DNA from: an uncultured Alphaproteobacteria bacterium
GTDB taxonomy: Bacteria; Pseudomonadota; Alphaproteobacteria; UBA7985; CAJQQZ01
Assembly (NCBI GenBank): GCA_905480575.1
Contig: CAJQQZ010000164.1
Location: forward strand, 1 to 50,091
Reading direction: 5' to 3'
DNA length: 50,091 bases
The position numbers and the translations under genes are program-made. Shown in pieces: positions 3,128 to 46,886 of this stretch (its first letter is position 1; each line of letters starts with the position of its first letter). The notes under the pieces were generated by a model. The model was not told the origin of the DNA. It worked only from the letters and a program-made list of their open reading frames with translations, and did not search any database.

Positions 3128-3204
3128 CCTTTATCCTTTAAAGCTTAGTACACCATTTATCCTTTGTGTATAACACTCACGCAATTCAAGCAAAGGGGAA
3201 GTCC

Positions 3205-4179
3205 ATGTCGCTCGAAAATCTCGGTCTGTCAGACATCTATCAAGCAAGAGAACGCATTCGTGGTACCGCTGTGCATACGCAGCTGATGCCTTCACCGTCC
3301 CTCTCTGAGAAATTCGGCGCAGACGTCAGGCTGAAGCTGGAGATGCAGCAACCCATTGGCGCTTTCAAAATCAGAGGTGCTGCGAACAAGCTGGCGTCCA
3401 TGTCAGAGGCAGAGCGCGCCCGTGGTGTGGTTACTGTATCAACCGGCAACCACGGCCGAGCGGTTGCTTATGCCGCTAAAATGCATGGTGTTCGCGCGGT
3501 CATTTGCATGTCGACCCTGGTGCCTCAAAACAAAAAGCAAGCCATCGCTCGCCTAGGTGCAGAAATCAAGATCCACGGCAAGACCCAGGATGAGGCCGAA
3601 ATTCTCGCTAACGAACTGGTCCGCGACGAAGGCCTGATCATGGTACACCCTTTCGATGATCCTTTCGTCATGTGTGGCCAGGGTACCATTGGCCTCGAGC
3701 TTATTGAAGACATGCCCGAGATCGAACAGGTTGTTGTGCCTTTGTCAGGCGCAGGGTTGCTCGGCGGCATCTCTATGGCGCTGAAAGCAATCAAACCCTC
3801 CATCCGCACCATTGGCGTTTCCATGCAACGCGGCGCCGTCATGATCGAAAGTTTGGAAGCCGGTAAACCGATCGAAGTCGAAGAGCTTCCTACTCTGGCG
3901 GACTCCTTGGGCGGTGGCATTGGTCTGGATAACGAATACACATTCAAAGCTGTACAAAAGTATGTCGACGAGACCATTCGTGTTTCTGAAGAAGAGATCG
4001 AAGCTGGTCTCCGCCATCTCTACTTCGAGGAAAAAGTCGTCGCTGAAGGCGGGTCCTCCGTCGGTATTGCTGCTGTCTTAGCTGGTAAGCTCGACCTTCA
4101 GGGCAAAGCGACCGCCTTCATCATTTCCGGCAACAACATCGACATGAAGAAGCACGCTTCGATCATGGCAAAAGGCTAA
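3205..4179 (+). CDS. PLP-dependent threonine/serine dehydratase family, EutB-like
   Basis: A fold-type II PLP enzyme of 324 residues. The PLP lysine is K55 in IGAFKIRG. The substrate loop STGNHG lies at 79-84 and the phosphate-binding SGAGLLGG at 181-188. The run from GGGIGLDN through FEEKVVAEGG resembles hydroxyectoine-utilisation dehydratase EutB more than classic IlvA, and there is no C-terminal ACT domain. The start at 3205 is preferred because GGGGAA lies just upstream; an in-frame ATG at 3166 lacks this. No other ectoine-catabolism gene is adjacent, so threonine or hydroxyaspartate dehydratase activity remains possible. It is divergent from the frameshifted gene. Confidence 0.85.
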   Translation: MSLENLGLSDIYQARERIRGTAVHTQLMPSPSLSEKFGADVRLKLEMQQPIGAFKIRGAANKLASMSEAERARGVVTVSTGNHGRAVAYAAKMHGVRAVICMSTLVPQNKKQAIARLGAEIKIHGKTQDEAEILANELVRDEGLIMVHPFDDPFVMCGQGTIGLELIEDMPEIEQVVVPLSGAGLLGGISMALKAIKPSIRTIGVSMQRGAVMIESLEAGKPIEVEELPTLADSLGGGIGLDNEYTFKAVQKYVDETIRVSEEEIEAGLRHLYFEEKVVAEGGSSVGIAAVLAGKLDLQGKATAFIISGNNIDMKKHASIMAKG

Positions 4180-4182
4180 GAT

Positions 4183-4785
4183 TTAGTCACAACCGTTATG
4201 CTTGCGCCACATGGTTGGGTCGTGACCTTCGGGCACCGAAGCGCAAGGATCATCTGTATAACCACGAAGCTGGTTATATTTTTGAATTTGTTCCGGCGTG
4301 AGGATGGCCGGTGTTGTCAGGTGCGCAGACAAATGTATGTTGCGTAGCGCACCCCTCGCCGTCGCCGCATCTGACAACAATGTCGACAATCGTGCCTCAT
4401 CAATATGGCCATGCTCAAAAGCTCGGCTGAGAGCTTCTTCTGCTTCAATATAAGTCTCTCCAGCGGCGATAGCCTGCTTTTGCATCGCTTGAAAAATCGC
4501 AGTGATTTCGTCAATCTGTTCCTCGGATAGATCCAGCTCGCTCTTCAGTTCAAGGACGTGCTTAGGGCCTGGCCAGCCATTGAGCTCTGCCGGTAGCGCC
4601 AACCCCCAGCCCGAACCCGCCTGAAGGGCGGCTATGTCTTCGTTCGATAGGCTTTTGATATTTCGCTTCGTGAAGTCGGCGTAGTGGTTCTTTGTGCCAG
4701 AAGCGAAGGCGGCTGAATTTTGCACCAAGATAAAAACAGCACACAAACCCACGAAGCGGACTAGGGAAAAGGCATTTGATTTCAT
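4183..4785 (-). CDS. Periplasmic Spy/CpxP-like protein
   Basis: This 200-residue protein begins with a signal peptide (hydrophobic core at about 8-25, cleavage near AFASG). The mature part is strongly helical. It contains LDLSEEQIDEI near 85 and LTPEQIQKY near 170, the LTxxQ-type motifs of Spy/CpxP/ZraP periplasmic helical proteins. These act as chaperones or metal sensors in envelope stress. The C-terminus carries a Cys-containing tail. It is transcribed away from the Crp-type regulator only about 70 bases off, so the regulator may control it (inference). Overall similarity is too low for a specific name. Confidence 0.6.
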   Translation of the reverse strand: MKSNAFSLVRFVGLCAVFILVQNSAAFASGTKNHYADFTKRNIKSLSNEDIAALQAGSGWGLALPAELNGWPGPKHVLELKSELDLSEEQIDEITAIFQAMQKQAIAAGETYIEAEEALSRAFEHGHIDEARLSTLLSDAATARGALRNIHLSAHLTTPAILTPEQIQKYNQLRGYTDDPCASVPEGHDPTMWRKHNGCD

Positions 4786-4819
4786 TGGAGCATCCTCACT
4801 AAGTACAGAAAGCTATGAC

Positions 4820-4848
4820 ATGACATTTTGCCACTTCGCTGTATATGA
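4820..4848 (+). promoter_or_regulatory. Sigma70-like promoter giving a leaderless mRNA
   Basis: A -35 box ATGACA (4820-4825) and a -10 box TATGAT (4843-4848) are separated by 17 bases, and each matches consensus at five of six positions. Transcription would begin about 4855-4857, on the A of the ATG at 4857. No Shine-Dalgarno sequence precedes either candidate start, which fits a leaderless transcript. Confidence 0.5.
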
Positions 4849-4858
4849 TAATTATCAT
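4845..4858. promoter_or_regulatory. Perfect palindrome over the -10 region and start codon
   Basis: ATGATAATTATCAT is a perfect 14-base palindrome covering most of the proposed -10 box, the predicted transcription start and the first bases of the regulator gene. The position suits a repressor operator, most simply autoregulation. It resembles the GATAAT half-sites of Fur-type boxes but is not a full 19-base Fur box. Confidence 0.5.
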
Positions 4859-5384
4859 GTCTGAATTAATTACAAACATCTTCTCCGAAGCACCCAACAT
4901 TTCGCTGGAACGGAATGAAACCTTGTTCCACACTGGTGACGATGTCACATCAATTTACTTGGTCACTTCAGGTCAGGTTGAGTTGATCCGCTACACCAAA
5001 GACGGTGTCTGTCTCATCCTTCAAACCGCGGAAGCCAATGACGTGCTAGCCGAGGCCTCTCTGCACTCTCTGCGTTATCACTGCGATGCAAAGGCAGCCG
5101 CACCGTCGACATTAAAAGCACTTCTAAAGTCTGATTATCTACGCCGCGTCAGTCACGAACCACTTCTCGCCGAGGCCTGGGCACAGCGTCTAGCCTTGGC
5201 TGTTCAATCAGCAAGAATACGGGCCGAAATCAGAACTCTTAAGACGGTCGCGGAAAGGCTTGAAGCATGGCTCGATTCAAGAGAAGCCTTGCCGCCCAAA
5301 GGTCGCTGGCAGAATTTGGCCCAAGAATTAGGTGTCTCAAAAGAAGCGCTCTACCGGGAATTGGCTAAACGGCGACCCAACTAG
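4857..5384 (+). CDS. Short Crp/Fnr-family transcriptional regulator
   Basis: A 175-residue protein. Residues about 15-80 form a cyclic-nucleotide-binding-like beta-roll (ETLFHTGDD..., YLVTSGQVELIRY). A dimerisation helix follows, and about 130-172 is a Crp-type winged helix with LAQELGVSKEALYREL as the recognition part. It is shorter than typical Crp/Fnr (about 210-240 aa), and there is no N-terminal Fnr-type Cys cluster. The ligand is unknown. The start at 4857 is chosen from the promoter spacing; ATG 4845 lies inside the palindrome. It ends 80 bases before the cystathionine beta-synthase gene, which it might also control. Confidence 0.8.
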   Translation: MSELITNIFSEAPNISLERNETLFHTGDDVTSIYLVTSGQVELIRYTKDGVCLILQTAEANDVLAEASLHSLRYHCDAKAAAPSTLKALLKSDYLRRVSHEPLLAEAWAQRLALAVQSARIRAEIRTLKTVAERLEAWLDSREALPPKGRWQNLAQELGVSKEALYRELAKRRPN

Positions 5385-11116: not shown

Positions 11117-11851
11117 TTGCCCGATTCCTCTCAAAAGACGACACCCGACCTTCCCTTGTTCCGGCAGATCGTCGAACACATAAGATCACAGATCAATGAT
11201 GGCCGTTTGAACGCCCATTCCGCCCTGCCTTCCGAACGTGCCCTCGCCGAGGATCACGGCGTCAGCCGCATGACTGCCCGCAGAGCCCTGGAAGCGATTG
11301 AGGCCGAAGGTTTGGCCTACAGCGAAGAAAGACGTGGGCGCTTTGTGTCGCCCAGACGGCTAACCTACAACGTCAACTCCATGTCTAACTTCGTCGCTGA
11401 TGCAAAGCAGCAGAATATCGATGTTGAGGTTGAGTTGATTGAAAGCAAAGAGGTTACCGCGGACACCCGATTAGCGGAATTACTGACAATCGTTGAAGGG
11501 GCCAGCATAATTGAACGCACACGCTTGTTTCATTCAAACGATCACACGATTTTCTTTGAAACGGAATTCATCGCGCCTGATCTCTGCCCAGATCTTAGAA
11601 AACACGGTTCTGACGAGTTGTTAACCGAACGCTACGGCACACTAGGGCATACCGCTGATATCGTCGTCCGCATGGGTTCGATCAAGCCAACCGATGCTGC
11701 GCGTTTAAACGTGACGCCCTGGCAAGTCGGCATTGAACAAGAGCAGATCGTCAAGGATAGATCCGGCAAAGCATTCTGCTTCGTTCGTCAAATCTGGCGC
11801 GGCGAGCTTGTTCAGTTCTCCACTCAGGCAATCGAGAACCGTGAGAGCTAA
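11117..11851 (+). CDS. GntR-family regulator, HutC subfamily
   Basis: A 244-residue repressor-type protein. Residues about 12-78 are a GntR winged helix (LPSERALAEDHGVSRMTARRALEAIEAEG, the canonical recognition region). Residues about 95-238 are a UTRA ligand-binding domain. UTRA proteins sense small metabolites such as histidine derivatives, amino sugars or phosphonate-related compounds; the ligand here is unknown. The start is a TTG: no ATG or GTG lies between the upstream in-frame stop (near 11084) and this position. It faces away from the PhyH gene across the operator and probably regulates it. Confidence 0.88.
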   Translation: MPDSSQKTTPDLPLFRQIVEHIRSQINDGRLNAHSALPSERALAEDHGVSRMTARRALEAIEAEGLAYSEERRGRFVSPRRLTYNVNSMSNFVADAKQQNIDVEVELIESKEVTADTRLAELLTIVEGASIIERTRLFHSNDHTIFFETEFIAPDLCPDLRKHGSDELLTERYGTLGHTADIVVRMGSIKPTDAARLNVTPWQVGIEQEQIVKDRSGKAFCFVRQIWRGELVQFSTQAIENRES

Positions 11852-45014: not shown

Positions 45015-46886
45015 CTAGGCTGCGGCCTTTTCTTCCTTTGCTTGGGCTTCTTGTTGGCGTTTCCACATCTCTGCATAGATTGAATTGGCCTTTAACAACG
45101 CATCATGCGTGCCCTTTTCTGCGATTCGTCCTTGATCCAACACGATAATTTCGTCCGAATCAATAATGGTAGAGAGCCGGTGTGCCACCACCAGAGTCGT
45201 TCTGCCTTTTGAGACCTCAGCCAAAGACCTCTGGATTTCTTTCTCAGTTCGACTGTCCAGGGCGGATGTGGCTTCGTCAAAGAGGAGGATTTCGGGGTTC
45301 TTAAGAATCGTTCTAGCAATCGAAACGCGCTGCCTTTCACCGCCAGAGAGTTTGAGTCCTCTTTCGCCGACAACGGTGTCGTAGCCATCAGGAAGCGATA
45401 GGATAAAGTCATGAATTTGAGCCAATTTGGCGGCCTCAACAACCTTCTCCTGGCTAGACCCAGGGCGTCCATAGGCAATGTTATAAGCGATTGTATCATT
45501 AAACAGAACGGTATCCTGAGGCACAATTCCGATTTGGCCACGAACTGTTTGTTGCTGGCAGTCGCGCAAATCTTGCCCGTCAATACGGATAGCACCAGCA
45601 TTTACGTCATAGAAACGATACAGCAGACGACCAATCGTTGACTTGCCTGAACCTGACGGCCCGACGACGGCAGTGGTTGTACCCTTGGGAACACTGAAAG
45701 AAACGCCATGCAGTATCTGACGTTCAGGATTGTATGAGAACTCAACAGCTTCAAATTCTACGTCGCCGCCGGAAAGCACCAAAGGCTTGGCTTGAGGTGC
45801 ATCAACGACTTCAGTCGCTTCATCAAGGAGATTGAACATGAATTCCATGTCGACCAGCGATTGTTTGATCTCTCTGTAGACGAAACCAAGGAAATTGAGC
45901 GGCATGTAAAGCTGGATCAAATAGGTGTTCACCAAAACGAAGTCACCCAACGTCATGGTGCCATTTTTAACGCCGTAAGCCGCCATCAACATGACAAGAG
46001 TGACGCCAATTGAAATGATCGCTGCCTGGCCAATGTTGAGGAACGACAAGGAAACATTACTGCGGATGGCCGCTTTTTCATATCCCGCCAGGGCGCCATC
46101 GAAACGATTGGCTTCATGCTCCTCATTATTGAAATACTTAACGGTCTCAAAGTTGAGCAGGCTATCGATAGCCTTAGTATTAGCCTCTGAGTCGGACTTG
46201 TTCATCGCACGACGAAACTTAAGCCGCCATTCAGTAACCGAAATCGTATAAACGATATAGCCAACAATGGTCGTGAACGTCACGGCTGCATACCAGAAAT
46301 CAAAGAGCGTCCAAAGAATTCCACAGACCAGAAAGATTTCGAGCAGCGTCGGGAAAATCGAAAAGAGCACAAAACGAAGAAGAAAATCGATGCCCTTCGT
46401 TCCGCGTTCAATGGCCCGGCTCAGCCCCCCGGTCTGTCGGTCCAAGTGAAACCGCATCGATAGCGCATGGAGATGGCGAAAGGTTGAAAGTGCCACTTTG
46501 CGGATAGCGTTCTGTCCGACCCGCGCGAATAGAGCATCTCTCAGTTCACCAAATGCCAGTGATAGAACACGCGCTGCACCATAGGCCAATATGATGCCCA
46601 CTGGCACAAGCACTATCGCCCCTGCCTTACTGTCTAAGGCATCAACAGCCAGTTTCAGAAAGTAAGGAACCGTGACGTTGGCAACTTTTGACAAGACCAA
46701 AAAGGTCAGCGATGCAATAACGAGAAACTTGAGATCAAAGCGGCCTGTCGGCCAAATATGAACGATCAACCGTTTCAATGTACCCCAAGGATCGCCGTCC
46801 TGCTCGTAAGACGGCTTAGGGGCCGCCGAATTGGCGACCCCCTTACCTTGCTGCTGTTTCTTATTCTCCGGTGATTGACCGGCCAT
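45015..46886 (-). CDS. ATM1-type ABC exporter (fused membrane and ATPase domains)
   Basis: A 623-residue half-transporter. A polar N-terminus, six membrane helices (about 50-330) and a nucleotide-binding domain follow one another. The NBD has Walker A GPSGSGKST (about 405-413), signature LSGGERQRV (around 512), Walker B EILLFDEATSALD (around 530) and H-loop AHRLSTI. The glutamine-rich helix-6 area and RAIERGTKGIDFLLRFVLFSIFPTLLEI resemble Atm1/HMT1-type exporters of glutathione or Fe-S-related compounds; the substrate is inferred. It starts 11 bases after the coiled-coil gene, so the two form an operon ended by the terminator at 44925-44954. Confidence 0.88.
   Translation of the reverse strand: MAGQSPENKKQQQGKGVANSAAPKPSYEQDGDPWGTLKRLIVHIWPTGRFDLKFLVIASLTFLVLSKVANVTVPYFLKLAVDALDSKAGAIVLVPVGIILAYGAARVLSLAFGELRDALFARVGQNAIRKVALSTFRHLHALSMRFHLDRQTGGLSRAIERGTKGIDFLLRFVLFSIFPTLLEIFLVCGILWTLFDFWYAAVTFTTIVGYIVYTISVTEWRLKFRRAMNKSDSEANTKAIDSLLNFETVKYFNNEEHEANRFDGALAGYEKAAIRSNVSLSFLNIGQAAIISIGVTLVMLMAAYGVKNGTMTLGDFVLVNTYLIQLYMPLNFLGFVYREIKQSLVDMEFMFNLLDEATEVVDAPQAKPLVLSGGDVEFEAVEFSYNPERQILHGVSFSVPKGTTTAVVGPSGSGKSTIGRLLYRFYDVNAGAIRIDGQDLRDCQQQTVRGQIGIVPQDTVLFNDTIAYNIAYGRPGSSQEKVVEAAKLAQIHDFILSLPDGYDTVVGERGLKLSGGERQRVSIARTILKNPEILLFDEATSALDSRTEKEIQRSLAEVSKGRTTLVVAHRLSTIIDSDEIIVLDQGRIAEKGTHDALLKANSIYAEMWKRQQEAQAKEEKAAA

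Follow-up and report, generated by a model that had tools for sequence, protein, structure and literature searches.

CRP and FNR are global regulators, and the site from which they function as class II activators is centered at -41.5. The FNR consensus is TTGAT-N4-ATCAA. DNR, a Crp-Fnr regulator from Pseudomonas, is a Crp-type sensor that operates without cAMP. Many metal sensors work as repressors of divergent gene pairs.

The locus analyzed here lies in a stretch of 50,091 nucleotides from an uncultured alphaproteobacterium (contig CAJQQZ010000164.1), the whole of which is referred to as the window. It harbors a gene for a short Crp/Fnr-type protein and, divergently oriented, a gene for a Spy-like protein. 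The regulator resembles CRP and FNR in its Crp fold, in the TGA...TCA core of the dyad at its gene, and in the distance of 41.5 bp between this site and the predicted start of its target. CRP and FNR are global, whereas this regulator appears to be dedicated to one site, and unlike theirs, its site is also fused to its own start codon. The literature searched, with most subscription papers outside its scope, contains no description of the regulator, and a text search of PMC10141476 and PMC6308992 found no Crp/Fnr protein.

Features of the regulator protein

The regulator gene (positions 4857 to 5384, forward strand) encodes 175 residues, and an alternative in-frame ATG at 4845 would give a protein beginning with MIIIMSEL. 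The protein contains a cNMP-binding domain (PF00027; E value, 5.6e-12), a beta-roll present in all 72 members of the family alignment. In the AlphaFold2 model (pLDDT, 92.9), the Crp beta-roll is accompanied by a long dimer helix and by three helices of the DNA domain, the last of which has no strand (wing) after it. Foldseek matched NtcA, Clr, and CRP, with E values of about 1e-12 for NtcA and CRP. The model has the overall fold of the Crp superfamily, that is, a beta-roll, a long dimer helix, and a C-terminal helix-turn-helix. Pfam lists no Crp-type helix-turn-helix family for the 72 members, and a helix-turn-helix with a wing was not recognized. Since the helix-turn-helix is divergent, we have placed the regulator as an atypical Crp/Fnr member on the basis of its fold, in agreement with a preliminary description of this DNA, which had called it a short, atypical Crp/Fnr protein.

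No match of the window protein reaches an NCBIfam cutoff; the best, to LdrP (NF052518), scores 26.7 against a cutoff of 300, and FtrB (NF006901), the best partial match for 39 of the 72 members, scores 20.7 against 211 with the window protein. The best profile match to a solved structure is to DNR (PDB 3dkw; E value, 4e-15). Unlike the regulator, DNR lacks a His-Cys pair where the two proteins align, and a further difference is that the predicted outputs of the regulator are small periplasmic proteins. Six other Crp-domain genes are present in the genome to which the window belongs.

The predicted ligand pocket includes His75-Cys76-Asp77 (codons at 5079 to 5087, forward strand), of which the His and the Cys are invariant in 72/72 members. 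In place of His-Cys, Tyr-Cys is found in one homolog (L180) and Gln-Cys in two (L024 and L025). Cys76 is the sole Cys conserved among the 72 aligned members, and the cysteines of the FNR 4Fe-4S cluster are absent. Y74-H75-C76 aligns with R-S-A of the cAMP phosphate cassette in 4ev0, in a register that depends on a one-residue gap. The Arg-Ser of the CRP phosphate-binding cassette is thus missing, and where CRP has R-S, the regulator has Y74-H75 followed by the invariant Cys.

Some homologs appear to be interrupted. The one on pSymA of S. meliloti 1021 (L158, record 560086-560561) matches in two pieces and may be broken, and two regulator matches in related genomes (L028/L032 and L029/L033, in G244 and G144) are likewise in two pieces, as if split.

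Conservation of the palindrome at the regulator start

A perfect 14-base palindrome, ATGATAATTATCAT, is located at 4845 to 4858, where it comprises the half-sites ATGAT and ATCAT around AATT. No other match with up to two mismatches is present in the 50,091-base window, in which shuffling predicts 0.11, and the palindrome is not due to chance. We regard it as the core of a predicted operator, ATGAT-N4-ATCAT, hereafter the box. It extends to a dyad, A-Y-ATGAT-N4-ATCAT-R-T (ATATGATAATTATCATGT, 4843 to 4860), of which this is the sole exact copy in the genome. As the preliminary description had noted, the palindrome contains most of a TATGAT -10 element (4844 to 4849), and it takes in the first two bases (AT) of the start codon at 4857. 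The window also contains three longer perfect palindromes of 16 bp, at 46159, 34658, and 5559, one of them within a cystathionine beta-synthase gene.

Protein matches were obtained in 22 of 385 genomes of the class. Searching named genomes with an alignment of 10 members gave 187 confirmed relatives, from which 80 loci were kept by the peptide pattern [LI]GV[ST][PR]EALY, that is, by the protein alone and not by the box; residues 158 to 166 of the regulator are therefore conserved by construction. The counts that follow include near-copies (L009/L040, which are one locus, L086/L089, L081/L093, and L028/L029). ATGAT-N4-ATCAT is present at the regulator start exactly in 74 of the 80 loci and with one mismatch in 3, and in the remaining 3 the box precedes the neighboring target gene (in L074 with one mismatch). 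Alignment on the box was made for 75 of the 80 loci, as 3 had no box there and 2 were too near a contig end, and the ATGAT half-site occurs in 75/75. Only 2 exact boxes were found in 1,053,141 bases of the same loci beyond ±1.2 kb of the regulators. When the 24 loci from the genome searches (the window included) are taken together with the 80 named ones, the box is exact in 98 of 104, one base off in 4, and absent in 2 (L030 and L031), which are homologs without the His-Cys motif. It is also absent from all loci fetched around the six other Crp-domain genes of the genome. In the wider phylum, 28 of the 299 genomes searched encode the protein, 16 of them outside the class. Nineteen phylum loci were fetched, and the 16 new ones have an exact box in 13 cases, a one-mismatch box in 1 (L194), and none in 2, one of which (L195) ends soon after the gene. 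The conservation of the palindrome in orthologous regions, which the preliminary description had proposed as a check, holds, and as far as comparison can tell, the arrangement of the putative operator and the regulator is kept across many alphaproteobacteria.

The extended dyad occurs once in the genome of the window, between genes. All other core matches, 15 in number, fall within long open frames, as do the near matches to the 18-bp dyad, for which reason we rejected a many-gene regulon. In 16 gene-bearing genomes, the dyad was found 13 times, 12 of them at the regulator; the second site in G306 is within an apparent coding region, as judged by eye. Four of these 16 genomes lack the full dyad; their loci, L010 to L013, all have the core box between different flanking bases. 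Across the class, it is present in 40 of 385 genomes, 12 of the 22 with a protein match and 28 of the 363 others, and the long dyad alone is therefore not diagnostic.

These distributions bear on the possibility that a different FNR-like regulator of the cell (FnrN/FixK type) uses the box and has the encoded protein as one of its targets. The box core does resemble the FNR consensus. However, a global regulon is not what a single intergenic copy would represent, and the box follows the protein family (98/104 exact, 4 with one mismatch, and none in the two homologs without His-Cys), which makes this explanation highly improbable.

One could also consider that the box is coding sequence. If translation began at 4845, ATG-ATN-NNN-ATC-ATG would specify a fixed N-terminal peptide, MIxIM, and the box is indeed in frame with the regulator gene and followed by G in 74/75 loci. 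However, the same box is found outside the gene, ahead of a neighboring target gene, in L021 to L026, L082, and L085 (exact), in L074 (one mismatch), and in loci of another class, and in L010 to L012 it lies about 56 to 62 nt upstream of the aligned protein. Moreover, the four spacer bases are dyad symmetric, with n1 complementing n4 and n2 complementing n3, and the ATN that would be the second codon is ATA in 25/75, although ATA makes up 8.6% of the Ile codons of these loci. The spacer symmetry and the ATA excess indicate a constraint on DNA and not on the peptide. With the boxes found away from the gene, they led us to discard coding constraint as the cause of the box, a reading that we consider very unlikely.

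Predicted promoters on the two sides of the box

On the regulator side, there are two copies of ATGACA, at 4815 and 4820, followed by TATGAT at 4844. The putative promoter consists of the -35 element at 4820 to 4825 and the -10 element at 4844 to 4849, both on the forward strand, with a score of 10/12 and a spacer of 18; the two hexamers are those of the preliminary description, whose spacer of 17 becomes 18 when counted from 4820. In the box-aligned loci, the columns read TTG(C/G)CA, 17 to 18 bases, and A-(T/C)-ATGAT-N4-ATCAT-G-T; the -10 is (T/C)ATGAT in 75/75, with CATGAT replacing TATGAT in 28. The conserved TTG(C/G)CA can also be read as TG(G/C)CAA of the target promoter, by which the regulator -35 is partly confounded. 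C at target position -12, which equals the G of TTG(C/G)CA, is found in 44/76 sites overlapping the regulator start and is rare at the others (1/12), and this argues that the regulator promoter with its -35 is real.

The ATG at 4857 begins 7 nt past the -10, which makes a transcription start on or beside its A plausible. No Shine-Dalgarno-like sequence precedes this ATG, as had been stated earlier, and among the 75 overlapping loci such a 4-mer precedes the regulator ATG in only 1. Ahead of the first ATG in the box, one is found in 15/75 (347/1500 in shuffled sequences). On the target side, 70/76 loci have one before some start codon, a lenient count in which any start codon within a 58-nt stretch was accepted. 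Given this contrast, the simplest interpretation is an mRNA with no leader or almost none, and the 5' end of the regulator mRNA is probably on the AUG or no more than a few bases away. Two reports describe 171 mapped leaderless mRNAs in S. meliloti (PMC3616915) and 375 in Caulobacter (PMC4117421), indicating that this mode is ordinary in alphaproteobacteria. What differs here is that a promoter presumed to yield a leaderless mRNA is fused with the operator of the protein that it expresses, an arrangement kept across families. An ATG in frame with the gene stands upstream of the box in 30 of the 75 overlapping loci, and a GTG or TTG in frame does so in 15, and in some loci a longer regulator protein may be made from such a start.

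On the other side is the predicted target, a Spy-like protein with Metal_resist/LTXXQ domain matches (4183 to 4785, reverse strand), preceded on the same strand by a Shine-Dalgarno-like GAGGA (4793 to 4797) and an extended -10-like TGT-CATGTC (4817 to 4825), which occupies the same bases as the regulator -35. The transcription start of this gene is predicted at about 4810, and the operator center is 41.5 bp upstream of it. The hexamer of the window itself, CATGTC, is weak, with A at -11 and no T at -12 or -7. Across the loci, the -10 hexamer toward the neighboring gene begins 22 bases past the box, placing the box center at -41.5. At the 12 sites away from the regulator start, T-12 is present in 10, A-11 in 10, and T-7 in 8, and TAnnnT is found at the -12 offset in 7 of the 12 and at none of the other listed offsets. 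The 76 sites that overlap the regulator start have A-11 in 70, T-15 in 57, G-14 in 65, and C-12 in 44. The spacing rule was fixed before the phylum boxes were examined, and outside the class xAxxxT lies at the expected distance from 8 of 9 boxes when the strand that runs away from the regulator is read; one of the 8 hexamers is TATAAT. A site near -41.5 and a -10 at a fixed spacing are the properties of a class II promoter, and activation is predicted from them. This spacing, common to divergent and nondivergent loci and confirmed outside the class, is the strongest new result of the comparison. The comparison also supports the earlier link between the Spy-like gene and the regulator.

Predicted target genes and the possible signal

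At the 98 sites that could be typed, the gene ahead of the box belongs to one of five unrelated families: an unannotated His/Met-rich family with HHQ-HH-type motifs at the C terminus (45 sites), Spy-like proteins (37 sites, among them L015 and L017), cytochrome c'-like CxxCH proteins whose cytochrome c' matches are below the Pfam cutoff (9 sites), a second His/Met-rich family (4 sites), and DUF4395 (3 sites). On the regulator tree, 17 changes of target family are needed, with a minimum of 4 and a value of 42.7 after shuffling, which suggests that the regulator and the operator stayed linked through several replacements of the output. The first family, represented by L046:9336-9935 (reverse strand), L024:2115-2825 (forward strand), and their relatives, is periplasmic with GFIG...HHQ-HH near the C terminus; it has no convincing Pfam match and is a candidate copper-binding family. 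In L074, L082, and L085, near 11334 to 11344, the box precedes a DUF4395 gene that is convergent with the regulator gene, and on visual inspection the gene on the other flank resembles a cation/proton antiporter.

Among the downstream neighbors of the regulator, of which 60 of 77 were scanned, any one family turns up 3 times at most, and a cystathionine beta-synthase neighbor is found only in the same-genus locus L009 (= L040). The transsulfuration operon, which the preliminary description had included in the switch, was therefore rejected as an output, and its proximity is, by this comparison, incidental. Elsewhere in the window, a PALP-family dehydratase (3166 to 4179) scores above the cutoff of the EutB (hydroxyectoine) models and also adjoins the pair in L009.

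Within ±6.5 kb of the 80 loci, we found a multicopper oxidase cluster in 10, CopA-type ATPases in 7, and CueR/MerR-type genes in 5, as counted by scanning representatives and assigning members by BLAST. The class background is 149 multicopper-domain matches in 60 of 115 genomes (about 213 Mb for those 60 when their listed sizes are added up), from which at most 0.9 would be expected in 1.28 Mb; copper genes are enriched near the regulator loci. Plasmid copies adjoin CopC/CopD/DUF411, copper oxidase/azurin-type genes, CopA with cueR, or other metal genes. The copper genes are near a minority of the loci, and most, the window included, have none adjoining the regulator-target pair. From these neighborhoods, the plasmid contexts, the composition of the targets, and the His-Cys pair, copper is our best guess for the signal. 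With less confidence than for the other parts of the circuit, we suggest that copper or another thiol-reactive agent would be sensed at the invariant His75-Cys76. The comparison supports the stress or metal theme that had been put forward for this locus.

Discussion

Our results are likely to be best explained by one operator that would serve both for class II activation of the divergent target and for occlusion of the regulator's own promoter. We infer that the palindrome is bound by the Crp/Fnr-type protein encoded at 4857 to 5384 and used in two directions. Toward the Spy-like gene, a dimer at -41.5 would contact RNA polymerase as a class II activator. Toward its own gene, the operator covers the -10 and the start codon, so that a bound dimer should block the regulator promoter. 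The two predicted promoters lie back to back, with the bases of the regulator -35 also serving as the -10 region of the target, so that only one could be occupied at a time. With an mRNA that probably starts at or near the AUG, the -10, the operator, and the start codon would all fall within about 20 bp. The preliminary description had suggested possible autoregulation, and the conserved position of the box over the -10 and ATG argues for autoregulation. Autorepression stands as a second effect and not as the primary role, the site being first of all the predicted class II site of the divergent gene.

A pure repressor that blocks both promoters until it is freed by a signal, in the manner of the classical repressors of divergent gene pairs, would also account for the overlap of the operator with the regulator promoter, and it would match the behavior of many metal sensors. 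We consider this unlikely, as in divergent and nondivergent loci alike the site is at -41.5 from the target and leaves the target's -10 and start free. Activation of the target combined with autorepression remains the reading that we prefer.

A broader proposal, which we make only tentatively, is that this unnamed Crp/Fnr subfamily is a one-site metal sensor, probably for copper, in which the cAMP pocket has been rebuilt around His-Cys, the periplasmic cargo has repeatedly been swapped among at least five families, and the operator has remained fused to the regulator's -10 and start codon in most alphaproteobacterial loci. A possible Crp/Fnr-type metal sensor is thereby pointed to, and unannotated His/Met-rich periplasmic families are tied to one regulator. 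A widespread gene annotated only as "Crp/Fnr family transcriptional regulator" gains an explanation, and sequence alone yields a proposal for the full circuit, i.e., the binder, its site, the direction of each promoter, and the output gene. In this compact design, in which the operator coincides with the -10 and the start codon, autorepression and divergent activation would be one binding event.
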